Assembly (NCBI GenBank): GCA_900320595.1 | Contig: ONSW01000011.1 | Location: 1 to 37,765 of the forward strand | Origin: an uncultured Eubacteriales bacterium | Lineage (GTDB): Bacteria; Bacillota; Clostridia; Oscillospirales; Oscillospiraceae | Direction: 5' to 3' | DNA length: 37,765 nt | Shown: positions 12,457 through 35,074 of the stretch, one piece after another | How the letters are laid out: the number at the start of each line of letters is the position of its first letter | Position numbering within the stretch: the stretch's first letter is position 1 | Program-made: the position numbers and the translations under genes | Notes under the pieces: model-generated | What the model was told of the DNA's origin: nothing | Seen by the model: only the letters and a program-made list of their open reading frames with translations | Databases searched by the model: none

Positions 12457-14775
12457 ATGGAAACTAACAACTGGAAAAGAACACCGGGGATCGGTATGCT
12501 TCGCCGCACGCTGTTTTTGATGGCAACGTGCGGCATTGCTGCATTTGCGGTGCTGATCGCGCGTCTCTATCAGCTTCAGATCACCGAGCATGAAAAATAT
12601 GAGTCGCTCGCCGTGGCGCAGCAGCTGCGCGAAGCGGCTTCGTCGAACGAGCGAGGCACGATCTGCGACCGCAACGGTGTTCCGCTTGCCATCAGTGCAA
12701 CGGTGGACAACGTATATCTAAGCCCTGTCGAGATCGAGATGTATGGAGAGGACAAGGAGCTGATTGCAGACCGCCTTTCTGAGATCCTGGGAGTCGACAG
12801 AGAGGAGATCTACGAAAAGGCCTCGCGGCAAGGGTCGTGGTATGTGACAGCGGCGCGAAAGGTCGAGCAGGAAACTGCCGAAAGGGTGCGAGCCTTTAAG
12901 GAAGAATACGGCATCAAGGGCGTCCGTCTGGAAACGGACACAAAACGATATTACCCCAACGGCTCGCTTGCCTGTCATCTGCTTGGATTTGTCGGAACGG
13001 ACAATTACGGATTGGAGGGGATCGAAGCGCAGTACAACAGCTTTCTCGAGGGCGGCGCGGGTTCAACGGTGCGCGGAACGAACGCATACGGGACCGAGCC
13101 GATGTTCGAGCAGTATGCCGAGCACATTGCGGGAGAAGAGGGCTGCGATGTCGTCACGACAATCGATTCGACGATCCAGTATTTCATCGAAAAGCATCTG
13201 AGGCAGGCAGTCGCCGATTACGACGCGCTCAACGGCGCGGGCGCGATCGCAATGGACGTCAACACGGGAGCCGTCCTTGCCATGGCGTCGCTGGACGGAT
13301 ATGACCCGAATGATTTCCTGGCTGTCAGCGAAAAAGCACAGGCAGCCGTTGACGCGGCTCCGAACGCAGAGGAGGCGCAAAAGCTCCTTGCCGCGTTTCA
13401 GGCAAGACAATGGCGCAACAAGGCACTGTCGGATACATATGAGCCGGGCTCGACCTTCAAGATCATCACGCTTTCGATGGCGCTCGACAGCGGAGCTGTC
13501 TCACTTGGCGACGGGTTTTACTGTCCCGGTTATGTCAGCGTGATCGGCCGCAGCTCGCCCATCCGGTGCTGGAAGGACGGCGGGCACGGTTCGCAGACGC
13601 TGACGCAGGCTGTGCAGCATTCGTGCAACGCGGCGTTCGTCGCAATCGGGCAGCGCGTGGGCGCGGAGCGCTTTTATGAGTATTGCGACGCCTTTGGCTT
13701 TCTACGGCTTTCTGACGACCCGGACGAGAATCTCAGCGCCAAAACGGGGATCGATCTCGCCGGAGAGAGCGGGAGCATCTGGTGGAGCCGCAATACTTTC
13801 TGCTCACCGAAAAATCTGTCGCAGCTTGCGGCTGCCTCTTTCGGTCAGACTTTTACGATCACGCCGCTGCAGCTGATCACGGCTGTCAGCGCCTGCGTCA
13901 ACGGCGGGCGGCTGATGAGGCCCTATGTCGTATCGGAGATCCGCAGCGCGGACGGGGAGACCGTTCTCAGGCGAGAGCCGGAGCTCGTGCGGCAGGTGAT
14001 CCGCGAGGAGACGAGCGAAAAGGTACGCTCGATCCTGGAGCAGGTCGTAGGCGACCCGAAGGAAGGAACAGGGCGCAACGCCTCGGTCGCCGGCTATCGG
14101 ATCGGCGGCAAGACCGGAACAAGTGAAAAAGTTAGCCTCGAAGCCGCGACAGGGGAGAAGGAATATATCGTCTCCTTTATCGGTTTCGCGCCGGCGGATG
14201 ATCCGCAGATCGCGGTGCTTGTGTTTCTCGACACGCCGTCGCCCAAAACCGGGATCTATATCAGCGGCGGCCAGATGGCGGCGCCGGTCGTCGGCGCGAT
14301 GATGGCGGATATCCTGCCGTATCTCGGCGTGAGGGCGGAACAAAACGCTGCCGACGATTCTGCCAGGGACGTCATGATGCCGCAGACCGTGGGAAAAAGT
14401 CTGGACGAGGCCGGGGCGCTGCTGAAAAAGGCGGGGCTTCGCTTTCGCACGATCGGAGAGGGCGAAACCGTTACGGCACAGCTTCCCGCGGCGCTGTGGC
14501 AGATCGCGCGCGATACGGAGACGATCCTGTATTTGGGCGCGGAGATTTCAAATGAAAAAGAAATTGTTCCCAATCTCGCGGGAATGCGTTATAATGAGGC
14601 GCGGGATGTGCTTTCCCGCTATGGGATCTATCTTCATTCTCTCAGCACCGTGATAGACGGAGAGCAGCAAAGCGTCAGCACGCAGAGCATTCTGCCGGGA
14701 TATGCGGTCGAACACGGGAGCGTGATCGAGGTCTCGCTTGTATCGAACGACGAATCCATGCTGGGAAAGTACTGA
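12457..14775 (+). CDS. Class B penicillin-binding protein with PASTA domains (SpoVD/PbpB type)
   Basis: Peptidoglycan transpeptidase anchored by an N-terminal membrane helix (about residues 18-38), followed by the PBP dimerisation domain with the RGTICDRNG motif. The transpeptidase motifs are complete: S332TFK, S389CN and K552TG. Two C-terminal PASTA domains follow, about 645-700 and 704-768 (VPNLAGMRYNEARDVL is the second). FtsI, PbpB and SpoVD share this plan, and the sequence alone does not say whether this one serves vegetative division, spore cortex or both. It lies 64 nt after ftsL; the ATG at 12457 follows CAGGAG, while an earlier ATG at 12441 opens only an 8-codon frame. Confidence 0.93.
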   Translation: METNNWKRTPGIGMLRRTLFLMATCGIAAFAVLIARLYQLQITEHEKYESLAVAQQLREAASSNERGTICDRNGVPLAISATVDNVYLSPVEIEMYGEDKELIADRLSEILGVDREEIYEKASRQGSWYVTAARKVEQETAERVRAFKEEYGIKGVRLETDTKRYYPNGSLACHLLGFVGTDNYGLEGIEAQYNSFLEGGAGSTVRGTNAYGTEPMFEQYAEHIAGEEGCDVVTTIDSTIQYFIEKHLRQAVADYDALNGAGAIAMDVNTGAVLAMASLDGYDPNDFLAVSEKAQAAVDAAPNAEEAQKLLAAFQARQWRNKALSDTYEPGSTFKIITLSMALDSGAVSLGDGFYCPGYVSVIGRSSPIRCWKDGGHGSQTLTQAVQHSCNAAFVAIGQRVGAERFYEYCDAFGFLRLSDDPDENLSAKTGIDLAGESGSIWWSRNTFCSPKNLSQLAAASFGQTFTITPLQLITAVSACVNGGRLMRPYVVSEIRSADGETVLRREPELVRQVIREETSEKVRSILEQVVGDPKEGTGRNASVAGYRIGGKTGTSEKVSLEAATGEKEYIVSFIGFAPADDPQIAVLVFLDTPSPKTGIYISGGQMAAPVVGAMMADILPYLGVRAEQNAADDSARDVMMPQTVGKSLDEAGALLKKAGLRFRTIGEGETVTAQLPAALWQIARDTETILYLGAEISNEKEIVPNLAGMRYNEARDVLSRYGIYLHSLSTVIDGEQQSVSTQSILPGYAVEHGSVIEVSLVSNDESMLGKY

Positions 14776-14798
14776 TAAAGGATATAAAGAGGAAGAAC

Positions 14799-16250
14799 AT
14801 GAGATTATCGGAACTGCTGCAGGATCTTGAGATCCTTTCCGCCACGGCGGATATGAGCAAGGAAATCACAGGCGTGTGCTACGATTCGCGAAAGGTGAAG
14901 CCGGGCGACCTTTTTGTCGCCGTCAAGGGCTTTTCGTCCGACGGTCACCGCTTTATCCCAACGGCCCTGGAAAAGGGGGCGGCCGCCGTGCTGTGCGAGG
15001 ATATTCCCGCGGACGCTGCACCCTATGTCCAGATCGCGGACTGCCGTCTGGGATTGGCGCTTGCGAGCCGCAACTTTTACGGCAATCCCGCCGGGGAGAT
15101 GACGGTCATCGGGATCACCGGGACCAGCGGCAAGACGACATCGAGCTATCTCATCCGGCACATGCTGGAGGAAAAGCTGGGCGCCAAGGTCGGGCTGATC
15201 GGAACAAACGGCAACATGATCGGCGACGAGCACATCCATTCGGAGTTTACAACGCCGGAGAGCCTTGAGCTTCAGCAGTTGTTCCGGCGCATGGCGGACA
15301 GCGGCTGCACGCACGTCGTGATGGAGGTCTCGTCCCACTCGCTTGTGCTGGAGCGCGTGGCGGGGATCCGCTTTGACGTCGCGCTCTATACCAATCTCTC
15401 GCAGGATCACCTGGATTTCCATCATACGATGGAGGAATACGCCGCGGCGAAAAAGAAGATCTTTTCCGTATGCAGCACGGCCTGTGTCAACGCAGACGAC
15501 GCATGGTGTGATTTCATGAGCGGAGATGCGGCCTGCCCGATCCTGTCCTTCGCGGTCGATAAAGAGGCTGATCTCCGTGCAGAGAACGTCAGCCTTTCTG
15601 CCTCCGGCGTGCGCTTTGAAGCCTGCCTCGGCGAAGAGCGCGCCGAGACCTCGCTTGCGATCCCGGGACTTTTCTCAGTACACAACGCGCTCGGTGTGAT
15701 GGCAGTCGGGCTTGTTCTGGGGCTCTCGCTTGAAGACTGTGCCGACGCGATGCGCTCGGCAAAGGGCGTCAAGGGGCGCTTGGAGAGCGTACCGACAGAC
15801 GGCGATTATGATATTATCATCGATTATTCGCACAAGCCGGACGCGCTGGAAAACGTGCTGACGACGCTCCGTCCCGTCACGCGCGGAAGACTGATCGTGC
15901 TCTTCGGCTGCGGGGGAGACCGCGACCGGCTCAAGCGGCCGATCATGGGCGCAATCGCCTCCGAAAAGGCCGATCTTTGTATCGTGACGAGCGATAATCC
16001 CCGTACCGAGGAGCCGGAGGCGATCATCGATGAGATCATGGAGGGCGTCGAAGGGAAAAGCGCGCAGGTCCTGCGGATCTGCGACAGGGTCGAGGCGATC
16101 CGCGCCGCTATTGACAACGCCCGCGACGGTGATGTAATATTGCTTGCCGGGAAAGGCCACGAGGATTACCAGATCGTAGGCCATGAAAAACACCACATGG
16201 ACGAGAGAGAGATCGTGGCCGACTATCTGAAGATGAGGAAAAAGATATGA
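14799..16250 (+). CDS. murE: UDP-MurNAc-L-Ala-D-Glu:meso-DAP ligase MurE
   Basis: Adds the third residue of the peptidoglycan stem peptide. The ATP-binding motif GITGTSGKTT lies near residues 103-112, the YTNLSQDHLDFHHTMEEY central motif is present, and the substrate-selecting motif is DNPR at about 399-402, which marks meso-diaminopimelate rather than L-lysine ligases. A C-terminal LLAGKGHEDYQI confirms the family. It is full length at 483 residues and overlaps mraY by 4 nt. Confidence 0.95.
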   Translation: MRLSELLQDLEILSATADMSKEITGVCYDSRKVKPGDLFVAVKGFSSDGHRFIPTALEKGAAAVLCEDIPADAAPYVQIADCRLGLALASRNFYGNPAGEMTVIGITGTSGKTTSSYLIRHMLEEKLGAKVGLIGTNGNMIGDEHIHSEFTTPESLELQQLFRRMADSGCTHVVMEVSSHSLVLERVAGIRFDVALYTNLSQDHLDFHHTMEEYAAAKKKIFSVCSTACVNADDAWCDFMSGDAACPILSFAVDKEADLRAENVSLSASGVRFEACLGEERAETSLAIPGLFSVHNALGVMAVGLVLGLSLEDCADAMRSAKGVKGRLESVPTDGDYDIIIDYSHKPDALENVLTTLRPVTRGRLIVLFGCGGDRDRLKRPIMGAIASEKADLCIVTSDNPRTEEPEAIIDEIMEGVEGKSAQVLRICDRVEAIRAAIDNARDGDVILLAGKGHEDYQIVGHEKHHMDEREIVADYLKMRKKI

Positions 16251-24375: not shown

Positions 24376-24797
24376 TATGATATTTGGACTGAAAAACAAA
24401 AGAAATTGGCCTCTAATAACCATTCTGTGTTCTACCTGAATTATGCTCTTGTTCTGGTTGTCAAATTTCGCCGAAAAGTGATAGATGACACGGTCTCGCA
24501 GAGGTTACAGGAAATCTTTGAGTACATACAGCCTTCATACAATAATACTCTTTAGGGATGGAATCACAATCAAGATCATGTGCACGTGTTTTTTCAGCAC
24601 ATCCCAATTCTGAGCTCACGAAGTTTTTGAATGCATACAAGAGTGCAAGCAGTCGGCTGATCAAAAAAGAGTTTCCTGAGATCCGGCAAAAATTGTGGAA
24701 GGAATACTTTTGGAGTAGAAGATTCTGCCTGGTCAGCAACGGAGGGGCTCCAATTGAGGTGATAAAGAAGTATATAGAAAGCCAAGGAGAAAAATGA
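24376..24797 (+). pseudogene. tnpA: IS200/IS605 Y1 transposase TnpA, inactivated
   Basis: The first part, read from about 24376, encodes SNNHSVFYLNYALVLVVKFR and continues to an in-frame TAG at 24553-24555. It reads through to NHNQDHVHVF, containing the H-x-H metal motif. At a six-T run (24589-24594) the frame shifts and the rest follows in another frame: AHPNSELTKFLNAYKSASSR to GAPIEVIKKYIESQ, which carries the catalytic tyrosine. So the gene has one nonsense mutation and one single-base frameshift, and no good start codon in frame (a TAG stands at 24373-24375). All parts of the normal 140-residue protein are recognisable. Confidence 0.85.
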
Positions 24798-25894
24798 AAG
24801 CGAACAAATCTTACAAGTTCAGACTCTACCCAAACATGGAACAACAAATTCTGTTTGCAAAGACTTTTGGTTGCGCAAGATTCGTCTATAATAAAATGCT
24901 CGGGGATAAAATCGAATACTATCAAAGCACAGGGAAAATGCTTCATAATACCCCAGCGCCGTTAAAAGAGGAATTCCCGTGGCTGAGGGAAGTGGACAGC
25001 CTGGCACTTGCAAATGCACAACTGCAGCTTCAGACAGCCTATAACAACTTCTTCAGGAATACATCAATTGGATTTCCGAAGTATCGAAGTAAGAAGTCTG
25101 GACGAAAAAGCTACACAACAAATAACCAAAAAGGCACAGTACGGATAGAGGCCGGGAAGTTAAGGCTGCCAAAGGTCGGATTCGTCCGAATAAAACAACA
25201 TCGGCAAATCCCTGAAGGTAATACTATTAAGAGTGTTACTATTTCGCAGGAACCATCCGGAAAGTATTATGCATCGATCCTGACCGAGTACGAAACCGAA
25301 GAGCAGATTGTCATGTTAGATGCGGAAAAGTCTATTGGTCTTGATTACTCGAGCCCACATTTCTATGTCTCCAGTGATGGAGAGATAGCTGATATGCCGT
25401 CATTCTATCGAGGAGCAGAGATTAAACTCGCCAGAGAACAACGGAAGCTCTCCAAAATGACGAAAGGTGGAAGCAACTGGAAAAAGCAGAAGATCATTGT
25501 TGCTAGAGCACATGAGAAAGTCCGCCTCAAGCGCAAAGACTGGCAGCACAAGAAAAGTGCAGAACTGGCCGAACAATATGATTACATCTGTGTAGAAGAC
25601 ATCAATCTCAAAGGCATAGCGCAAGGATTGAATCTTGGAAAGGCAACAAACGACAATGGATTCGGGCAATTCTTGGAATTCTTATCATATAAAATGGCAG
25701 AACGAGGGAAGAAACTGATCACGATAGACAAGTGGTTTCCGTCTTCCAAGACCTGTCACAGTTGTGGATTTGTGAATGAAGAACTAACTCTGGCAATTCG
25801 CGAATGGACATGTCCATGTTGCGGAGAATACCATGATCGTGATATAAATGCGGCAATAAACATTAGAAAACAGGGTCTATCCATTATTGCGTAA
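24794..25894 (+). CDS. tnpB: TnpB, RNA-guided nuclease of the IS element
   Basis: A 366-residue TnpB, the ancestor-type relative of Cas12. The split RuvC-like nuclease is intact: Asp184 in IGLDYSS, Glu268 in CVEDINL and Asp350 in HDRDINAAINI. The four-cysteine zinc finger (CHSCG, CPCCG) lies between the last two. The N terminus KSYKFRLYPNMEQQ and the arginine-rich region SKKSGRKSY are typical. The ATG overlaps the tnpA stop. In studied elements TnpB uses an RNA from the right end to cut the empty donor site and so keep the element. Length and motifs give no sign of decay, in contrast to tnpA. Confidence 0.93.
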   Translation: MKANKSYKFRLYPNMEQQILFAKTFGCARFVYNKMLGDKIEYYQSTGKMLHNTPAPLKEEFPWLREVDSLALANAQLQLQTAYNNFFRNTSIGFPKYRSKKSGRKSYTTNNQKGTVRIEAGKLRLPKVGFVRIKQHRQIPEGNTIKSVTISQEPSGKYYASILTEYETEEQIVMLDAEKSIGLDYSSPHFYVSSDGEIADMPSFYRGAEIKLAREQRKLSKMTKGGSNWKKQKIIVARAHEKVRLKRKDWQHKKSAELAEQYDYICVEDINLKGIAQGLNLGKATNDNGFGQFLEFLSYKMAERGKKLITIDKWFPSSKTCHSCGFVNEELTLAIREWTCPCCGEYHDRDINAAINIRKQGLSIIA

Positions 25895-28759: not shown

Positions 28760-28825
28760 TCATTCCGATCGGAGAGCCTGACGAAGCTTTTCAAGCGCGC
28801 GCTTTTCGATGCGCGAGACATAGGA
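28760..28825 (-). CDS. sigK: 3' fragment of split sigK (end of region 4.2)
   Basis: On the minus strand, from the 8-bp core (28818-28825) the codons read SYVSRIEKRALEKLRQALRS and end with E and a TGA at 28760-28762. SYVSRIEKRAL is the signature of the sigma-K recognition helix. This piece has no start of its own; it becomes the end of sigma-K when the intervening element is removed. The same frame upstream is closed by the stop codon of the recombinase gene at 28832-28834, so read-through is prevented before excision. Confidence 0.93.
   Translation of the reverse strand, partial: SYVSRIEKRALEKLRQALRSE
28818..28825 (-). repeat. Attachment core at the sigK 3' side
   Basis: ACATAGGA (minus TCCTATGT, coding S-Y-V of sigma-K). 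Identical to 34339-34346; flanking bases differ (GCGTGCTT here, ACGGCTGA there). Confidence 0.85.
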
Positions 28826-28831
28826 GCGTGC

Positions 28832-30418
28832 TTATTGTAAGTGATTGATCCCCTCCAACTGCGGGAATTTGAAATGTATGATGACCTGTTTATCCTCCGT
28901 CAGCTCCACCCGCTCGATCAGGCTGACCAGTACCTCCCGGCTTCGGACGCCGGTTTCGAGGAAGCGCCGCACAAGCTCTCTGGCTTCCGCCTCCCTTTGC
29001 TGTGGGGAGATCTCCTGCGTCTGTATCGCGTCCAGCCGTTCCGATGTTGCGGTGCGTTCGGTCTTGACCTTTCGATATATGCGCTCAAAATCTCCCTGGT
29101 CCAGCAGGCCGTTCAGCTTATCCAGATAGATCTTGTCAAGCTGCGCTGTCAACGAGTCCAGCCTCGCCGTCAGCGCTGTCCGCTCTTCCTCCGCGCGGTC
29201 TGTCTGCTCCGCCTGTTCCAGCTCCTCGCGGGCGACGGGCAGCAGCGTTTTGGGATCAAGATAGGCTTGGCAAACTTGCCGAACGCGCTCCAGCACCTCC
29301 TCCGTCAGCGTCTTCTCCTTGATGTTGTGGCAGGTGCAGACGCCTGCTGAGGTAAAACGCTGATAGGTGCGGCATACGAAGAACAGAACGTCCTCGCCCT
29401 TCGCGTTCCGTCGGTTAAGGACGGCCAGCGGGTAGCCGCACTCATGACAGAAGATCAGCCCTTTCAACAGGAAGTCATAAGTGCGGCTGCGCGTATGCTT
29501 GCGGCTGTCCACCAGCATTCGCACCTTGCGGAAGGTCTCCCTGTCAATGATCGGCTCATGGGTATTCTCCACCACCACCCAACTTTCACGGGGCTGACGT
29601 ACAGTCTTTTTTGACTTGTAACTGACTTTGACCGATCGGCCCTGCACCATGTTTCCGATATAGGTCTCATTTTGCAGCATGTCGGAAATGCGCTCGCTGG
29701 ACCATAGGCCGTTGTATGGGCCAATTTTGCCGGGCGTGAGTCCCGCATAGGTGGCCGGCGTCGGTACGCCCTCTGCGTTAAGCGCTGCGGCGATCTTCCG
29801 GCAGCTCATGCCGGAGAGCGCCATGCTGAAGATGCGCCGCACCGTGGGCGCCGCTGCCTCGTCGATCACGATCCTGTTTTTCTCCGTCGGGTGCATCTGA
29901 TAACCGTAGACGGGCTTGCCGCCGATGAACTGTCCCTTTCTCTGCTTGTCGCGCTTGACGCTCTTGATCTTTTTGGAGATATCCTTGGCGTACATGTCGT
30001 TCATGATGGCGCGAAAGGGCGTTATGTCGTTGGCCGAGGACTCCACGCCCGTGTCGATCCCGTCCAGCAGGGAGATGTAACGTACCCGCTTTTCCGGGAA
30101 ATAGCGCTCCATATAATGCCCGGTCAGAATGTAGTCGCGCCCCAGACGGCTCAGGTCTTTGGTAATGACCATGTTGACCTTTTTGGCCTCAATGTCCCCG
30201 ATCATACGCAGAAAGTCCGGGCGGTCAAAATTGGTCCCGCTCCATCCATCGTCGATATAGGTATCATAGACAAGAATGTGGTGCAGTTTCACAAATTCAT
30301 CCAGCAGCGACCGTTGGTTAGTAACACTTTGGGATGGGCCTTCGCTCTCGTCCTCCTTTGACAGCCGGATATAAAGGGCTGCCCGATAGTCCAATGGGTT
30401 ACTTATTTCTATCTGCAT
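28832..30418 (-). CDS. Large serine recombinase (SpoIVCA-like), predicted sigK element excisionase
   Basis: A 528-residue large serine recombinase. The N-terminal resolvase domain starts YRAALYIRLSKEDES, with the catalytic serine at residue 20, followed by the conserved TKDLSRLGRDY. The recombinase domain (KRKGQ/GKPVYGYQ) and a zinc-ribbon domain (FCHECGYPLA with later CRTY and CTCHNI) follow, then a C-terminal coiled coil. The ATG at 30418 is chosen over 30451 because GGAGG lies 6 nt upstream. The stop codon is 7 bp from the attachment core and the gene is transcribed in the same direction as sigK. Position and family make it the enzyme that excises the element during sporulation; no mother-cell promoter could be identified by eye. 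Confidence 0.93.
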   Translation of the reverse strand: MQIEISNPLDYRAALYIRLSKEDESEGPSQSVTNQRSLLDEFVKLHHILVYDTYIDDGWSGTNFDRPDFLRMIGDIEAKKVNMVITKDLSRLGRDYILTGHYMERYFPEKRVRYISLLDGIDTGVESSANDITPFRAIMNDMYAKDISKKIKSVKRDKQRKGQFIGGKPVYGYQMHPTEKNRIVIDEAAAPTVRRIFSMALSGMSCRKIAAALNAEGVPTPATYAGLTPGKIGPYNGLWSSERISDMLQNETYIGNMVQGRSVKVSYKSKKTVRQPRESWVVVENTHEPIIDRETFRKVRMLVDSRKHTRSRTYDFLLKGLIFCHECGYPLAVLNRRNAKGEDVLFFVCRTYQRFTSAGVCTCHNIKEKTLTEEVLERVRQVCQAYLDPKTLLPVAREELEQAEQTDRAEEERTALTARLDSLTAQLDKIYLDKLNGLLDQGDFERIYRKVKTERTATSERLDAIQTQEISPQQREAEARELVRRFLETGVRSREVLVSLIERVELTEDKQVIIHFKFPQLEGINHLQ

Positions 30419-30475
30419 ATTTGCCTCCAGAAACAAGCGACCATTCATCATCTATATTGTAAAATATGATGCCGA

Positions 30476-30613
30476 TCATGTCAAAATTTGCACTGTTTCC
30501 GGCAGGTTTATCTGTATAAAAGTGCGGAAAGCCTCTATCAGCAAGCTCTCCGCGCTTTCCCCTTTTTCGTTATAGGTACAAGTCACCGTGATCTGCCTTT
30601 TTGCTTTCTCCAT
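30476..30613 (-). CDS. 45-residue protein upstream of the recombinase, unknown function
   Basis: Starts MEKAKRQITVTCTYNEKGES, preceded by a perfect AGGAGGTG ribosome binding site 7 nt away, and ends 57 nt before the recombinase start. The strong ribosome binding site and phase with the recombinase support a real gene, although an in-frame ATG further upstream (30682) exists without such a site. Small proteins of this kind are often seen before serine recombinase genes in Clostridia. It is a candidate recombination directionality factor or regulator by position only. Confidence 0.7.
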   Translation of the reverse strand: MEKAKRQITVTCTYNEKGESAESLLIEAFRTFIQINLPETVQILT

Positions 30614-30676
30614 AGAACACCTCCTGACTACTCTATGCATATGCCGCTCCGCCTCGTTTTTTGCCTGTCCATCGGG

Positions 30677-30703
30677 AAACATGTCTCACCGTGAGACATG
30701 TTT
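30677..30703. repeat. Palindrome of the TGTCTCA-N3-TGAGACA family, copy 1
   Basis: 12-bp perfect arms AAACATGTCTCA / TGAGACATGTTT around CCG, followed on the plus strand by a T-rich run (TTTTCTGTTGTTT). It lies upstream of the 45-residue gene. It could be a terminator for plus-strand reading, an operator, or a transposon-end relic, since related copies lie at 32250 and 32942. Confidence 0.6.
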
Positions 30704-30978
30704 TCTGTTGTTTCCCTCTGATTACCTAAAACAAAAAAGAGGGCTAAAAAAACGGATATTCGCAAAAGTAGTCAAAAGAAGTGAAAAAGATATTACTTTT
30801 GGCAGTATTCGATATGAAACAGAGTATTATTGCATTTAGCAGATGCGCCTCAAAAGAGTGTTGGTTGATTTCGGGCTTTATTCTTGTTCTAATTCAAATT
30901 AGATATTAATTAATTTAATTACTACTATTGACAAGATAGTTTTCTTGTGATATTTTAAGTGCAAGGAGGCGAGAATGA
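30704..30978 (+). promoter_or_regulatory. AT-rich intergenic region with predicted promoter and palindrome
   Basis: No gene seen. It holds a 16-bp palindrome TCTAATTCAAATTAGA at 30888-30903 and, 25 bp further, a promoter TTGACA (30928-30933), 17-nt spacer, TATTTT (30951-30956), followed by AAGGAGG (30963-30969) for the next gene. The palindrome just upstream of the -35 element is a possible activator or repressor site. The GC content is much lower than in the flanking host genes. Confidence 0.65.
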
Positions 30979-31722
30979 ATGAAACGCTTGATCACAAAAT
31001 GCCCCAACTGCCATGAGTATTTGAAAATCGCATCTTTGAAATGTCCCGAGTGTGGGCTAGAGCTCCGCAACGATTTCGAGCCGAGTATATTCGATCAAAT
31101 CAATGATGAACAGTACGCTTTTCTCATTTCTTTCCTTAAAAACAGAGGGAATTTGAAAAATCTGCAAAACGAATTTCAAATCTCTTACCCGAGCGCAAAG
31201 AAGAAGCTGGACGAGCTGCTGGAGGCTCTCGGTCTTGAATGTTCTGTTGATGAGGCACAGCCAGCCATAGAAGTGGATCTGAGCAATATGGAGATCGACG
31301 ACAAGAGCGTAAAGGCTTCGGAGATTATCAAGGCCAAGCTGAAAGAAGCCGGTGGCCGCGTGATGGTACGCACCTTGAACGGCGAGCTTCGTGAAATCGT
31401 CGCCGCTCCGAACGGGAAGGATTTTCTTTGCCCACAGCTGATTCCATACCCCTATGAGGTTTTTGATGCAATCGTTAATCTTCTGCTGGAAAGCCCCGGC
31501 TACCGTGCGCGCAAGGGTAACGCGCGCATGGCTAAGCTTGGCGAGCCGGGCTGCGAGGAAAACACCGTCGCAGGAGCTGTTCTTCTGTTCCAGGGTAAAA
31601 AGCCCGGAGAGTCCGGATTGGACCCGACGTTCATTCTTGCCGCTGTGTTGGACTGGGCAGGAATTGCAACCAACGGACGTGGAGAGATTGCCCTGACCGC
31701 GTCATATAGGAACAGACTATGA
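30979..31722 (+). CDS. Zinc-ribbon DUF2089-like protein
   Basis: A 247-residue protein. The N terminus is a four-cysteine zinc ribbon (CPNC at residues 8-11, CPEC at about 22-25). Next comes FLISFLKNRGNLKNLQNEFQ, then ISYPSAKKKLDELLEALG, which matches the helix-turn-helix-like pattern of DUF2089. The remaining 150 residues (about 90-247) have no motif I recognise and are unlike the usual short DUF2089 proteins, so this may be a fusion. It is a probable DNA-binding regulator by its N-terminal half. ATG 30979 is 9 nt after AAGGAGG; the ATG at 30975 is in another frame. Confidence 0.7.
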   Translation: MKRLITKCPNCHEYLKIASLKCPECGLELRNDFEPSIFDQINDEQYAFLISFLKNRGNLKNLQNEFQISYPSAKKKLDELLEALGLECSVDEAQPAIEVDLSNMEIDDKSVKASEIIKAKLKEAGGRVMVRTLNGELREIVAAPNGKDFLCPQLIPYPYEVFDAIVNLLLESPGYRARKGNARMAKLGEPGCEENTVAGAVLLFQGKKPGESGLDPTFILAAVLDWAGIATNGRGEIALTASYRNRL

Positions 31723-31832
31723 CTACTATCCTTATTCTTTTACTATTTTCCTGCGGAGGTATCATCGGCCACCTGCTGCGCATACCAATTCTCGTTTTGT
31801 ATAACGTGCTATTCAAAGATAATAAATGGTAG
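31719..31832 (+). CDS. Small hydrophobic peptide, 37 residues
   Basis: Overlaps the stop of the DUF2089-like gene (ATGA) and encodes MTTILILLLFSCGGIIGHLL, a single hydrophobic segment, then a short polar tail. The coupling arrangement and membrane-like content make a small membrane peptide plausible. There is no homology I can name, and it could be chance. Confidence 0.4.
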   Translation: MTTILILLLFSCGGIIGHLLRIPILVLYNVLFKDNKW

Positions 31833-31848
31833 AAAGACGGTGAAAGAT

Positions 31849-32094
31849 ATGGGAAAGTTTTATCCGTTGACAAATTATTTATCAAACATAACCGAGAAAA
31901 ACCTTGTCCTTTCCTTCTCTGAAATTGAGCGTATAATCTCCGAACAACTCTGTTATTCAGCATATACATATAGGGCATATTGGGCCCCCAGCAAAACACA
32001 TATGCTGCCCAATGCAATTCTTGAGGCCGGATTTGAAATTGACAACATCGACCTGAGTAAACAGAGAATCATACTGAAAAAAGCAGAACAGTAG
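31849..32094 (+). CDS. Small conserved protein, DUF7662-like
   Basis: 81 residues from ATG 31849 (an upstream GTG at 31840 is possible). The pattern GKFYPLTNYL, LSFSEIERIISEQLCYSAYT, YRAYWAPSKTHM, AGFEIDNIDL and a final basic beta strand matches a widespread family of small proteins recalled as DUF7662. The function is unknown. A strong hairpin terminator follows 12 nt after the stop, closing the transcript that starts at 30957. Confidence 0.65.
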   Translation: MGKFYPLTNYLSNITEKNLVLSFSEIERIISEQLCYSAYTYRAYWAPSKTHMLPNAILEAGFEIDNIDLSKQRIILKKAEQ

Positions 32095-32106
32095 GGCAGA
32101 ATAAAT

Positions 32107-32160
32107 GAAAAAGCGCACGCGCACCGTCCTTTGTCTAGGTCGGCGCGCGTGCGCTTTTTC
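32107..32160. terminator. Strong bidirectional terminator
   Basis: Perfect 16-bp arms GAAAAAGCGCACGCGC (32107-32122) and its reverse complement (32145-32160) with a 22-nt loop; T tracts on both strands. It separates the plus-strand DUF2089 operon from the minus-strand toxin-antitoxin pair. Confidence 0.9.
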
Positions 32161-32180
32161 GATTCCGAAAGTATGTCTCG

Positions 32181-32227
32181 GCAAGTATGGCATTTGGTAG
32201 TACAAACGCCCTTGTTAGGGGAAAGCC
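32181..32227 (+). repeat. Left 47-bp terminal inverted repeat
   Basis: Begins GCAAGTATGGCATTTGGTAG and ends with AGGGGAAAGCC; reverse complement of 32979-33025 except two positions. Confidence 0.85.
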
Positions 32228-32249
32228 TCTAAGACCCCGACAGCAGAAA

Positions 32250-32272
32250 ACTTGTCTCAGAGTGAGATAAGT
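32250..32272. repeat. TGTCTCA-N3-TGAGACA family palindrome, copy 2
   Basis: 10-bp arms ACTTGTCTCA / TGAGATAAGT around GAG; the one mismatch would be a G-U pair in RNA. Read on the minus strand it is followed by GTTTTCTGCTG, as copy 1 is on the plus strand. It lies downstream of the toxin gene and may terminate the pair. Confidence 0.55.
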
Positions 32273-32294
32273 ATTCAAAAGGACAAAAACGCTC

Positions 32295-32603
32295 TTATTC
32301 TGCAATACCCTTGTTTCTGTCGCGGCGGCCGTGAAGGAAGCGCCGGATCTCCACACAATCCTGAAAAACGGCATAGTACAGCCCATAGTTCTTGACCGGT
32401 ACTTTTCGGATCTCGTCCTGCATCGGGCGCTCTGTGCGATAAAGCTCGCAGGCATAGGGAAACTCCGCGATTTGCTTTATCGTTTCGTCAAACGCTGTCA
32501 ATAAATCACGGGCGGCTTTCGGTGCGTCCAGCGTGGAGGCGATATAGTCCAGCGCCTCCAATAAATCGATTTCCGCAAGCGGCAAATAGAGGATCTTATG
32601 CAC
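32295..32603 (-). CDS. ParE/RelE-superfamily toxin
   Basis: A 102-residue toxin of the RelE/ParE fold: MHKILYLPLAEIDLLEALDY (first strand and helix), then ELYRTERPMQDEIRKVPVKN and YGLYYAVFQDCVEIRRFLHG, the last strands with the typical YY-x-V and R-x-x-H. Whether it cleaves mRNA or blocks gyrase is not decidable here. It overlaps the upstream antitoxin gene by 8 nt, so translation is coupled. Confidence 0.87.
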   Translation of the reverse strand: MHKILYLPLAEIDLLEALDYIASTLDAPKAARDLLTAFDETIKQIAEFPYACELYRTERPMQDEIRKVPVKNYGLYYAVFQDCVEIRRFLHGRRDRNKGIAE

Positions 32604-32883
32604 GCTTCCGTCCCTCCGCCGTGTTCAGAAGCTGTCGCGCCTTTGTCATCACGTCCTCGTGGCTATGGCGCTCGGTGGTGCTTGCCGCCTGCAGCTCCGC
32701 CTCGCGCAGTTTGTCATATACCATGCTTTCATAGCGGTTTTGCTCGTAGCTCTCCATGCTCATGACCACAATGGAGCCGACGCCGTTCTTGGTCAAAAAC
32801 ACCGGCTCGCCGCTGAGCTGTGCCTCCTTCGTGATCTCCGCGAAATGATTTCGCAAATCAGAAACAGGTCGAATGTTGGGCAT
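32596..32883 (-). CDS. Phd/YefM-type antitoxin
   Basis: 95 residues starting MPNIRPVSDLRNHFAEITKE, then GEPVFLTKNGVGSIVVMSME: the typical Phd/YefM DNA-binding and dimerisation domain. The charged C-terminal half (about residues 50-95) would be the toxin-neutralising tail. AGGAGGTG is present 6 nt upstream. It has its own strong promoter and presumably represses it with the toxin. Confidence 0.9.
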   Translation of the reverse strand: MPNIRPVSDLRNHFAEITKEAQLSGEPVFLTKNGVGSIVVMSMESYEQNRYESMVYDKLREAELQAASTTERHSHEDVMTKARQLLNTAEGRKRA

Positions 32884-32907
32884 CTCGCCACCTCCTTGTT
32901 TAGCATT

Positions 32908-32936
32908 ATTGTATGCAAAATTGCGCTAATTGTCAA
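32908..32936 (-). promoter_or_regulatory. Promoter of the Phd/ParE pair
   Basis: On the minus strand consensus TTGACA (32931-32936), 17-nt spacer, TACAAT (32908-32913). TTAGC and GCTAA flank the -10 region symmetrically, a likely autoregulatory site. Confidence 0.85.
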
Positions 32937-32941
32937 CGTAT

Positions 32942-32966
32942 AATGTGTTTCACGGTGAGACACATT
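32942..32966. repeat. TGTCTCA-N3-TGAGACA family palindrome, copy 3
   Basis: 11-bp arms AATGTGTTTCA / TGAGACACATT around CGG with one G-U-compatible mismatch. It lies just upstream of the -35 element of the antitoxin promoter and inside the right inverted repeat of the cassette. Confidence 0.55.
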
Positions 32967-32978
32967 TCTGGGTTTCAG

Positions 32979-33025
32979 GGCTTTGCCCTGACAAGGGCGT
33001 TTGTACTACCAAATGCCATACTTGC
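32979..33025 (-). repeat. Right 47-bp terminal inverted repeat
   Basis: Reverse complement of the left repeat at 45 of 47 positions; ends CCAAATGCCATACTTGC. Confidence 0.85.
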
Positions 33026-33069
33026 TCAACAGTACGCTTATCCGGACGGTAAAAAGTAATGACATTGTA

Positions 33070-33103
33070 TTGACTTTCATGCCATGTTCGGATATAATAT
33101 CCG
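33070..33103 (+). promoter_or_regulatory. Promoter and operator of the RelB/RelE pair
   Basis: TTGACT (33070-33075), 17-nt spacer, perfect TATAAT (33093-33098). The -10 lies inside a palindrome with 7-bp arms CGGATAT / ATATCCG around one base (33089-33103), where the antitoxin complex could bind. GAGGAG follows at 33105-33110. Confidence 0.8.
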
Positions 33104-33119
33104 TGAGGAGTTGATGATC

Positions 33120-33443
33120 ATGGATAACACAGTCAATGTCGTTAACGCGCCTAAGACTTCTACCTTTCAGATGCGGATCAATCCGGATGTCAAACGGCAG
33201 GTGGAAGCCGTGTATGCCAAACAGGGCTTGACCTTTACCGACGCCGTCAATATTTTTATCCAACAGTCTCTGAACGAGGACGGTCTCCCCTTCCTTGCCT
33301 CCCCAGAAAATACAGAGTTTATGAAAGCGAAGGCTATGCGCCGCTTGCTGGGCGAAGTGCAGAAAGGCTGGGATTCCGCCGAGCGTGAGGGTTGGCTGAG
33401 CATAGAGGAAATAGAAGCGCGTTTGGGGATTGAGGATGAATAA
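33120..33443 (+). CDS. RelB/DinJ-type antitoxin
   Basis: 107 residues. STFQMRINPDVKRQVEAVYA and GLTFTDAVNIFIQQSLNEDG are the ribbon-helix-helix RelB/DinJ core, followed by LPF. ATG 33120 is 9 nt from GAGGAG, unlike the ATG at 33114. The last codons overlap the toxin gene by 8 nt. Confidence 0.9.
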   Translation: MDNTVNVVNAPKTSTFQMRINPDVKRQVEAVYAKQGLTFTDAVNIFIQQSLNEDGLPFLASPENTEFMKAKAMRRLLGEVQKGWDSAEREGWLSIEEIEARLGIEDE

Positions 33444-33771
33444 GCTGATCCTTTCCCCAGAGGCCGCAAGAGATTTGGAGAGTATCCGGCAGTACATAGC
33501 CTTTGAGCTGAAAAACAAGGCTTCGGCGCTTCGCGTCGTTCACAGCATCACAAAAGAACTGCGTATTTTGCAACGCTATGCCGAAGCTGGCCCTTCTGTT
33601 GAGGCATTGACAGGCTATTCGACCGACCTTCGGATGCTTGTCTGCGATTCCTATATCGCTCTTTATCGTGTAGAAGGAACAACCGTTTCCGTTGCCAGAA
33701 TCTTAAATGCCAAGCAGGATTTTTTGCAAGTCCTGTTTGGCAACGGCGCCGAACGCTTAACTTTGGACTAA
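33436..33771 (+). CDS. RelE/ParE-superfamily toxin
   Basis: 111 residues starting MNKLILSPEAARDLESIRQY; STDLRMLVCDSYIALYRVEG and VSVARILNAKQDFLQVLFG are the last strands of the RelE/ParE fold. The final R-I-L-x-x-K-Q-D is nearer to ParE-like toxins. Its start overlaps the antitoxin stop, and an SWIM-domain gene follows at 11 nt, making a three-gene operon. Confidence 0.87.
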   Translation: MNKLILSPEAARDLESIRQYIAFELKNKASALRVVHSITKELRILQRYAEAGPSVEALTGYSTDLRMLVCDSYIALYRVEGTTVSVARILNAKQDFLQVLFGNGAERLTLD

Positions 33772-33782
33772 CGGAGGTATAT

Positions 33783-34253
33783 ATGGGCTTGCTTTCTGTT
33801 GCCGGTGCCGCCTCTGTATGGCGGGGCTATGAGTATTACACGCAGGGAAAAGTTTTATCCTGCAAACAAATCAATACCGATGAATATGAGGGCGAAGTCG
33901 CCGGGAGCGGAAGCTCATCCTATCACGTTCATATCAACGTTGCTCATCCAAGAAAATCAAGCTGCAACTGCCCCCATGCCGATGGCCGTCAAATTATCTG
34001 CAAGCATAAGGTTGCTTTGTATTTTACCTCTTTTCCAAAGGAGGCCGACGCCTATCTTGCCGAAGTGGAGGCCTATGAACGAGAGCAGGAGGAATATGAG
34101 CGGGAGCAGGAGAAGCTGAGGCAGGAACGCTATGAAGCGCTGAAGAAATATGTCATGGGATTGTCGAAAAAAGAGCTTCAGGAGCAGCTTTTGGAGGCTT
34201 TACTTCGCTCGGATCTGGATGATTATGACGAGGACGATGATTGGGATTGGTGA
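33783..34253 (+). CDS. SWIM zinc-finger protein
   Basis: 156 residues. The SWIM motif C-x-C-x(n)-C-x-H is at about residues 60-74 (SCNCPHADGRQIICKHKVAL). Upstream, VWRGYEYYTQGKVLSCKQI and the V-x-G-S-x-x-Y-x-V-H-I pattern are typical of the N-terminal part of SWIM proteins. The C-terminal half is a charged helix rich in E, Q and R ending in an acidic DDYDEDDDWDW tail. SWIM domains bind DNA or protein; no helicase is fused. GGAGG precedes the ATG at 33783. It is part of the toxin-antitoxin operon and is the last gene before the attachment core. Confidence 0.85.
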   Translation: MGLLSVAGAASVWRGYEYYTQGKVLSCKQINTDEYEGEVAGSGSSSYHVHINVAHPRKSSCNCPHADGRQIICKHKVALYFTSFPKEADAYLAEVEAYEREQEEYEREQEKLRQERYEALKKYVMGLSKKELQEQLLEALLRSDLDDYDEDDDWDW

Positions 34254-34288
34254 TGAATGGTCGCCTGTATGTAATAATTCTGTATAGC

Positions 34289-34318
34289 AGTGCTGCCCGG
34301 ATTCGTCCGGGCAGCACT
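34289..34318 (+). terminator. Long perfect hairpin at the right end of the sigK element
   Basis: 13-bp perfect arms AGTGCTGCCCGGA / TCCGGGCAGCACT with a TTCG loop, but only a weak T content afterwards. It ends 20 bp from the attachment core and 4 bp from the truncated sigK stop. It may terminate the SWIM transcript before it runs antisense into sigK. Confidence 0.7.
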
Positions 34319-34322
34319 TACA

Positions 34323-34967
34323 TTAAGCGCGACGATATACATAGGAACGGCTGATCCGGCAGAGCTGAGCCGTTTCCCTTTGCGTGCGCGGCTCGCGCCC
34401 GTCAAGACCGTAGCGGAGCGTGATGATACGCTCCTCCCGTTCGTCGAGCGTCGTGCGGATCGCATCCCGGAGCTGCGAAAAGAGCTCATTTTCACAGAGC
34501 TTCTCATCGAGATCCTCGTCAAGCGCGACGACATCGAGAAGCGAGAGCGACCCGAGATCGCCGTCGGTGTCGATCGCGTCGGAGAGCCTGACGTCGCCGG
34601 CAGACTTGCGGCGGCTGCGAAAATACATCAGGATCTCGTTTTCGATGCAGCGGCTGGCATAGGTCGTAAGACGCACGCCCTTGTCGCGCTGATAGGTGTT
34701 GATCCCTTTGATAAGGCCGATCGTGCCGATGGAGATCAGATCGTCGGCATCCTCGCTTTGGGTATAGTACTTTTTGATGATGTGCGCCACAAGGCGCAGA
34801 TTGTGCTCGACCAGTTCATTGCGCGCGTCGATATCTCCCTGCTCCCAACGGGCAAGACAATCCGCCTCCTCCTCGCGGCTGAGCGGTTTGGGAAAGGAAT
34901 CACCCGGCATGATGCGCAGCATGAAAAACAGACTGTTCATCAACAGCCAGAATGCGCTTTCGATCAT
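34323..34967 (-). CDS. sigK: 5' part of split sigK (pro-sigma-K, regions 1.2 to 4.2)
   Basis: Minus-strand sigma-70 family factor. Region 2 is clear (NLRLVAHIIKKYY, DLISIGTIGLIKGINTY, RCIENEILMYFRSRR), as is region 4 (DEREERIITLRYGLDG, TQRETAQLCRISRSYV). The start at 34967, after GAGGTG, gives a hydrophobic N terminus (MIESAFWLLMNSLFFMLRIM) like the membrane-inserted pro-sequence of sigma-K. As it stands the frame ends 214 residues long, with a TAA (34323-34325) 13 bp after the core. Joining 34967-34339 to 28817-28760 gives 228 residues with ISRSYVSRIEKRAL restored. This is therefore a developmentally interrupted gene rather than a decayed one. Confidence 0.92.
   Translation of the reverse strand: MIESAFWLLMNSLFFMLRIMPGDSFPKPLSREEEADCLARWEQGDIDARNELVEHNLRLVAHIIKKYYTQSEDADDLISIGTIGLIKGINTYQRDKGVRLTTYASRCIENEILMYFRSRRKSAGDVRLSDAIDTDGDLGSLSLLDVVALDEDLDEKLCENELFSQLRDAIRTTLDEREERIITLRYGLDGREPRTQRETAQLCRISRSYVYRRA
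34339..34346 (-). repeat. Attachment core at the sigK 5' side
   Basis: ACATAGGA, identical to 28818-28825; on the minus strand TCCTATGT encodes S-Y-V in the same frame. Confidence 0.85.
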
Positions 34968-35074
34968 TGTGCCATCACCTCGCTTCATCCTATTCCGGCG
35001 CGGCCCGTCTCCATTCCTGAAAAGTTGACGGAAAAGGAAAAACGAGGGGGAAAAAGGCGGAAGGGGCGGAAGAC

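Follow-up and report, generated by a model that had tools for sequence, protein, structure and literature searches.

In the 37,765-nucleotide stretch of contig ONSW01000011.1 analyzed here (the window), which derives from an uncultured bacterium of the Oscillospiraceae, a 5,521-bp element that encodes a large serine recombinase interrupts sigK, the gene for a late sporulation regulator, inside the codon for Val217 (of 235). We consider it highly probable that this is an integrated element that regulates sigK via developmental excision, helped by a directionality factor. By its anatomy it is a skin-type system, at a new site and in a variant form that is recurrent in this family.

On the minus strand, the 5′ part of sigK starts at an ATG (34988 or 34967) and extends to 34339; its reading frame meets a stop codon 13 bp past the right-hand copy of an 8-bp core, ACATAGGA, which is present at both ends of the element (Table 1) and has no other copy across the whole window. 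The missing 3′ codons and their stop were found at 28760-28817. When the two pieces were joined in silico, the result was a reading frame of 235 codons from ATG 34988, or 228 from ATG 34967, ending ...ISRSYVSRIEKRALEKLRQALRSE, such that removal of the element leaves a single core and an intact SigK, with the split point inside the Val codon of SRSYV. An earlier sequence-only reading of this DNA had described identical cores flanking an element whose removal restores a SigK of 228 residues, and this is what we found for the start at 34967. That reading also had the recombinase gene ending 7 bp from the left core; it does end beside this core, at a distance of 6 bp (ORF (open reading frame) end at 28832).

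Against the SigK subfamily model, the 5′ part scores 1.6e-73 over residues 9-219, which is under the model's cut-off because the gene is cut. The 3′ fragment is without a start codon of its own, yet it is conserved. In a comparison of the window with locus L077, whose recombinase is 93% identical, the ratio of nonsynonymous to synonymous substitution rates (dN/dS) was 0.07 for the recombinase. For sigK it was 0.21 in the 5′ part and 0.11 in the 3′ part; the latter value covers 23 codons, of which the first four are arm and not sigK. The dS was 0.49 for the recombinase and 0.94 for sigK. An 8-bp repeat by itself is weak evidence; the core repeat goes beyond chance because the join is in frame, 25-bp inverted arms accompany it, and relatives show a like arrangement (21 of 21 complete elements).

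These arms are inverted matches of each other, and each would form one half of attP. The circle junction built in silico is a 50-bp near-palindrome with 18 of 25 symmetric positions, centered on the AC that starts the core, and none of 5000 shuffles of the junction stretch reached 18 symmetric positions. The recombinase ORF ends within an attachment-site arm, possibly starts at the conserved M of MQIEISNP, and contains YIRLS, which we take to be the catalytic motif. Its best-matching solved structure is TnpX (3.2e-25; SPbeta integrase, 1.6e-18), and it is 34.7% identical to TndX; we class it from these comparisons as a TnpX/TndX-like recombinase. A 13-bp motif, GATGAATGGTCGC, lies at the recombinase start in 67 of the 76 loci with enough sequence, compared with 9 of 1620 random 100-bp stretches. 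In 15 of 21 complete elements (a manual count), an inverted copy sits close to the far end.

Relatives of the window recombinase form a named set of 81 loci, which comprises the best 80 of 509 relatives from one scan plus the window. In 77 of these 81, a sigK fragment on the expected strand occurs no more than 400 bp from the 3′ end of the recombinase; 68 of the 77 recombinases face the 3′ fragment and 9 face the 5′ part. As controls, random positions in the same loci gave 158 of 4050, and recombinase 5′ ends gave 0 of 81 for the 3′ fragment. In a 400-genome sample of the window's family, 52 genomes (including G000) hold a recombinase relative at 1e-130, which adjoins sigK in 45. A phylum-wide sample contained such relatives in 2 of 398 genomes, namely G000 itself and G452, in which sigK 3′ codons follow the recombinase as judged by eye.

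The pattern of the attachment arms, which accepted GT or AC alone at its center, is present in 74 of the 81 loci (GT in 65, AC in 9), and 5 of the 7 loci without it still adjoin sigK. The AC loci and the reversed loci are the same 9, and in all of them the sigK 5′ part is open to ISRSY; among the 65 GT loci, 63 continue into an open, in-frame sigK 3′ fragment of 16-41 codons, the exceptions being L101 and L130. Because the AC loci are the reversed loci and the GT loci run into the 3′ fragment, the element occupies the same base pair in either orientation, and its orientation follows the central dinucleotide. Setting of orientation by the central dinucleotide is expected of serine integrases. 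A quickly built tree of 91 recombinases (87 labeled, about a dozen of these labels set by hand) requires 6 orientation changes, of which at least 4 are forced by starred branches; shuffled labels gave a mean of 11.5.

Complete elements, those closed on both sides, number 21 after the redundant L173 was dropped; in the remaining loci, the far end lies off the stretch or an arm does not fit the pattern. These elements range from 2,382 to 15,941 bp, and in silico excision restores ISRSY-VSR(I/L/V)E in frame in 21 of 21, that is, in the window and in 20 others, although in some of these joins the 5′ part is incomplete through a contig end or an additional element. Closely similar recombinases are found in records named Lachnospiraceae, Butyricicoccaceae, and Oscillospiraceae. 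This similarity across families suggests transfer; some of the records are metagenome bins, in which single cases could be binning errors. The same recombinase family was seen, close in sequence, in sigK of records named Blautia wexlerae (L088) and Butyricicoccus pullicaecorum (L080).

One relative (L223, which is the same as L104) lies away from sigK, at about 14260-15990, and has an intact attP-like site next to its recombinase, which belongs to the family; this natural site speaks for the proposed attP. We rejected an excised circle for this locus, as the contig holds uvrA/uvrB-like ORFs, its ends do not overlap, and sigK is uninterrupted in the same genome; we take the locus for a copy or remnant of an element at another place. 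Among ten relatives on viral contigs, of which the 3′ flank was viewed in five, no circle was found: in L232 and L233, sigK 3′ codons follow (by eye), L231 stops in the core, and L230 and L235 stop at the recombinase.

Two further recombinase families, 22-24% identical to the Val217 family and to each other, were reached through truncated pieces of sigK. The predicted sites of the three are K73 (type A), N117 (type B), and V217 (type C). The type A recombinase has a match at 1e-100 in 75 of 385 genomes, and a sigK piece lies beside it in 28 of the 30 best loci, in 25 with its end at residues 61-76. The type B recombinase matches in 38 of 385 genomes, with a sigK piece in 29 of the 30 best loci, in 25 with its end at 112-120; in L293, the piece is 1.4 kb away. 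N117 would correspond to the site of the Bacillus subtilis skin element if the core of the latter is AATGA in Asn-Glu, as we take it.

Pieces of sigK were sought in 18 genomes suspected of holding at least two elements, and seven genes were joined by computation. In six of these genomes sigK is in three pieces and in one it is in four, and the joins give a full-length or near full-length SigK. Elements B and C are both present in G078 (on one contig; joined SigK of 229 residues), G284 (231 residues), and Oscillibacter ER4 (227 residues, start trimmed); A and C in Flavonifractor An82 (231 residues) and G237 (230 residues); and A and B in G112 (230 residues, from the matched stretch). In G091, which holds A, B, and C, the four pieces give an intact SigK of 233 residues; the fourth piece is on another contig. 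The site A join as placed in G237 and G112 has one Lys fewer and keeps the frame, and the C element of Flavonifractor An82 would span ∼103 kb of one contig. Three elements may likewise be present in G250 and G067, in which sigK pieces were looked for and not found. Multipiece sigK loci were noted at L220, L221, and L330-L345. On balance, we favor the view that sigK in many Oscillospiraceae is a gene in pieces that up to three unrelated serine recombinases, acting at the conserved positions K73, N117, and V217, reassemble in the mother cell. This arrangement would act as an AND gate at the level of DNA, with production of sigma-K requiring the departure of all the elements.

A 45-residue ORF just upstream of the window recombinase is our candidate recombination directionality factor, by analogy with the helper proteins CD1234, SprB, and GirX, which are described as such in the available parts of three reports (PMC5025042, PMC6957869, and PMC5595907, respectively). 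A small-ORF family with a conserved part of ∼45 residues precedes the recombinase in 75 of the 81 loci, with its end anywhere from 76 bp before the extrapolated recombinase start to 43 bp past it; in the other six, the contig ends within ∼100 bp of the recombinase match, and the small ORF is hence present in 75 of the 75 loci that hold the stretch. Clustering by blastp groups this ORF in just 8 of 21 elements, and a profile was required to see the others. The window ORF has no Pfam, NCBIfam, or PHROG match at 1e-3; with Pfam E-values up to 1 allowed, matches for the small protein are weak, the best being to a ribbon-helix-helix family (0.038, in one of four members). The predicted model of the 45-residue protein is one helix (mean predicted local distance difference test (pLDDT) score of 72).

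In the mechanism that we propose, a mobile element without phage structural genes would use its large serine recombinase to recognize the invariant SRSYVSR codons of sigK. The gene would be split in growing cells, and its product, lacking the end of the region-4 recognition helix, would presumably be inactive. During sporulation, and in the mother cell only, the recombinase and the directionality factor (probably the upstream 45-residue protein) would recombine the two cores, releasing the element as a circle and leaving behind an intact pro-sigma-K gene. Two unrelated recombinases would follow a like logic at two other codons of sigK, simultaneously in some genomes.

Several observations weigh against this mechanism. 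The excised junction in this species is a prediction from sequence. Four of the 81 named recombinases (L084, L101, L104, and L130) and 7 of the 52 in the family sample fail the sigK-adjacency test. The directionality-factor role of the candidate ORF depends on its position and conservation. Promoters were assessed in the 69 of 75 loci with enough upstream sequence by simple consensus counting, which is weak in both directions: sigma-E-like promoters showed no excess, with 1 of 69 at threshold upstream of the small ORF (shuffles, 4%) and 0 of 69 between the small ORF and the recombinase (shuffles, 1%). The vegetative consensus (at least 10 of 12 positions) was enriched between the small ORF and the recombinase (14 of 69; shuffles, 2%) and showed no enrichment in the stretch preceding the small ORF (0 of 69; shuffles, 3%). 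The comparison of the window with L077 cannot prove that the insertion is older than their split. Finally, a second sigK could be missing from the window assembly, which is a 107-contig draft that is 92.65% complete. In this assembly, a single sigK was found, and the intact second copy that would have spoken against the sequence-only reading did not appear; the next match is 45% identical, lies beside an ORF read as spoIIGA, and has an ending that we take to be typical of sigE, so that it looks like sigE.

The vegetative-type promoter-like site at the window recombinase, the transfer suggested by the spread of similar recombinases across three families, and the variable toxin-antitoxin and accessory cargo would all fit a selfish mobile element for which sigK serves as a conserved insertion target, with excision that is random or stress-driven and is tolerated because enough cells excise. 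We regard this account as possible, though it has less than an even chance. It overlaps with regulated excision of an integrated element and does not exclude it, the sigK pieces remain open and conserved, and CD1231 of Clostridioides difficile is also vegetatively expressed according to the available part of one report (PMC5025042).

It is improbable that the insertion inactivated sigK in a host that no longer completes sporulation. A match to sigK at 1e-55 is present in 272 of 400 sampled genomes of the window's family and absent in 3 of 9 congeners (G109, G224, and G264), in which late sporulation is possibly lost, so sporulation may be lost in parts of the genus. Against this, the frame is kept in all complete elements, the start-less 3′ fragment is conserved, and spo0A and spoIVA are present in the window genome above curated cut-offs. 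In the other 6 of 9 congeners, the sigK match reaches residues 232-235 of the joined query, so that the uninterrupted gene which the sequence-only reading had proposed to look for in related genomes does exist at the Val217 site. Fusion of a mobile element to sigK during assembly is conceivable for a metagenome draft in many contigs but hardly credible, given that a like junction is present in strain-titled records (Flavonifractor An82, Oscillibacter ER4, B. wexlerae, and Pseudoflavonifractor capillosus) and in the one-contig genome G078.

Features of the element are collected in Table 1. The description of a skin-type element with a large serine recombinase, a precise in-frame join, and its own cargo is borne out by the sequence. 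Clustering by blastp shows that the recombinase alone is common to 21 of 21 complete elements; an ORF read as a tyrosine recombinase is present in 10 of 21 and other cargo ORFs in fewer, such that the cargo consists of toxin-antitoxin and accessory genes that differ from element to element. The smallest complete element (L110) holds the recombinase, a small ORF, and a 120-residue ORF. No phage structural family was found among the nine ORFs of the window element against PHROGs, nor in Pfam or NCBIfam. A prophage origin was rejected, as there are no phage structural families and the relatives in phage and plasmid records are all <60% identical. The phd/parE-like pair is flanked by 47-nt inverted repeats (32181-32227 and 32979-33025, 96% complementary) that resemble a small mobile cassette inside the element. 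Elsewhere in the window, a TnpB-like ORF was read by eye at 24794-25894, with no transposase seen adjoining.

Table 1. Features of the split sigK gene and its intervening element (window positions)
Feature	Position	Strand	Remarks
sigK 3′ part, (V)SRIEKRALEKLRQALRSE + stop	28760..28819	-	from the join
Left core ACATAGGA	28818..28825		AC at 28818-28819, predicted crossover dinucleotide
Recombinase-side attachment arm, half of attP	28819..28843		inverted match to 34315-34339
Large serine recombinase, 539 residues	28832..30451	-	Resolvase, Recombinase, and zinc-ribbon domains (three Pfam domains)
13-bp motif GATGAATGGTCGC at recombinase start	30437..30449	-	67/76 loci, up to 2 mismatches
Vegetative-type promoter-like site TTGACA-N17-TACAAT for recombinase	30456..30484	-	11/12 consensus positions
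45-residue ORF, candidate recombination directionality factor	30476..30613	-	just upstream of recombinase
Cargo: zinc-ribbon/helix-turn-helix DUF2089 protein	30979..31722	+	family scan
Cargo: DUF7662 protein	31840..32094	+	family scan
Cargo: Phd-like antitoxin and ParE-like toxin	32295..32883	-	family scan
Cargo: RelB-like antitoxin and ParE/RelE-like toxin	33084..33771	+	family scan
Cargo: SWIM zinc-finger protein at distal end	33783..34253	+	family scan; clusters with ORFs of elements L100 and L109
Inverted second copy of 13-bp motif GATGAATGGTCGC	34252..34264	+	75 bp inside distal end; also inverted repeat I5
Distal attachment arm, other half of attP	34315..34339		inverted match to recombinase-side arm
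Right core ACATAGGA	34339..34346		AC at 34339-34340
sigK 5′ part, 216 codons + GT of Val217 from ATG 34988	34339..34988	-	pro-sequence, region 2, most of region 4

The window element shares with the B. subtilis skin element (recombinase SpoIVCA) an interrupted sigK, a large serine recombinase, a short core, and a join that restores sigma-K. It differs in being 5.5 kb long and without phage structural genes and in using another codon (Val217), whereas B. subtilis skin is a 48-kb prophage-like element with a 5-nt core in the available part of PMC13141910. With skinCd of C. difficile (CD1231 and CD1234), it shares a split sigK, a recombinase with a small helper (here a candidate), and a vegetative-type recombinase promoter. 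The skinCd site is stated to differ from that of B. subtilis. The skinCd element is 14.6 kb and prophage-like. The window sigK has a pro-sequence, unlike C. difficile sigma-K as described in the accessible part of PMC5025042. The gin element of Bacillus cereus ATCC10987 (GirC and GirX) is likewise a nonphage intervening element in a sporulation gene with a recombinase and a helper; its target is gerE, and it is 28.6 kb with three recombinases in the portion of PMC5595907 consulted.

The recombinases TnpX (the best structure match) and TndX belong to mobilizable or conjugative transposons, which insert at several sites, whereas the window family is at one sigK codon in nearly all cases (77 of 81 at sigK). 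Phage structural genes mark the prophage-like skin elements (B. subtilis, C. difficile, and Clostridium tetani); none was found in the window element, which does not group with these. With its other codon, its TnpX/TndX-like recombinase, and its recurrent, stackable family, it is not a relative of prophage-like skin. Elements in sigK are mentioned in B. subtilis, C. difficile, C. tetani, Clostridium perfringens, some Clostridium botulinum, and Alicyclobacillus, with B. cereus biovar anthracis also listed, in the available parts of these sources (PMC5025042, PMC13141910, PMC5595907, PMC12946183, PMC11536998, PMC10083194, PMC6957869, and PMC5553647), and the skin element is called an exception in clostridia in that of PMC5025042. 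In the open-licence literature that was searched, supplements aside and as far as its texts were available, no account was found of a Val217 sigK site, of the V217 recombinase family at sigK, or of a multiply cut sigK.

Based on the above analyses, one recombinase family in the sample of a single gut family is bound to one sigK codon, two others use different codons, and some sigK genes are interrupted two or three times. In the genomes of spore formers, a sigK that is only split may be recorded as broken or missing. The analysis also yields a collection of site-specific recombinases whose attB and attP sites are inferred, and it makes testable the questions of whether mobile elements were repeatedly recruited as developmental switches, whether stacked elements exit in order, and how orientation is naturally set by the central dinucleotide.

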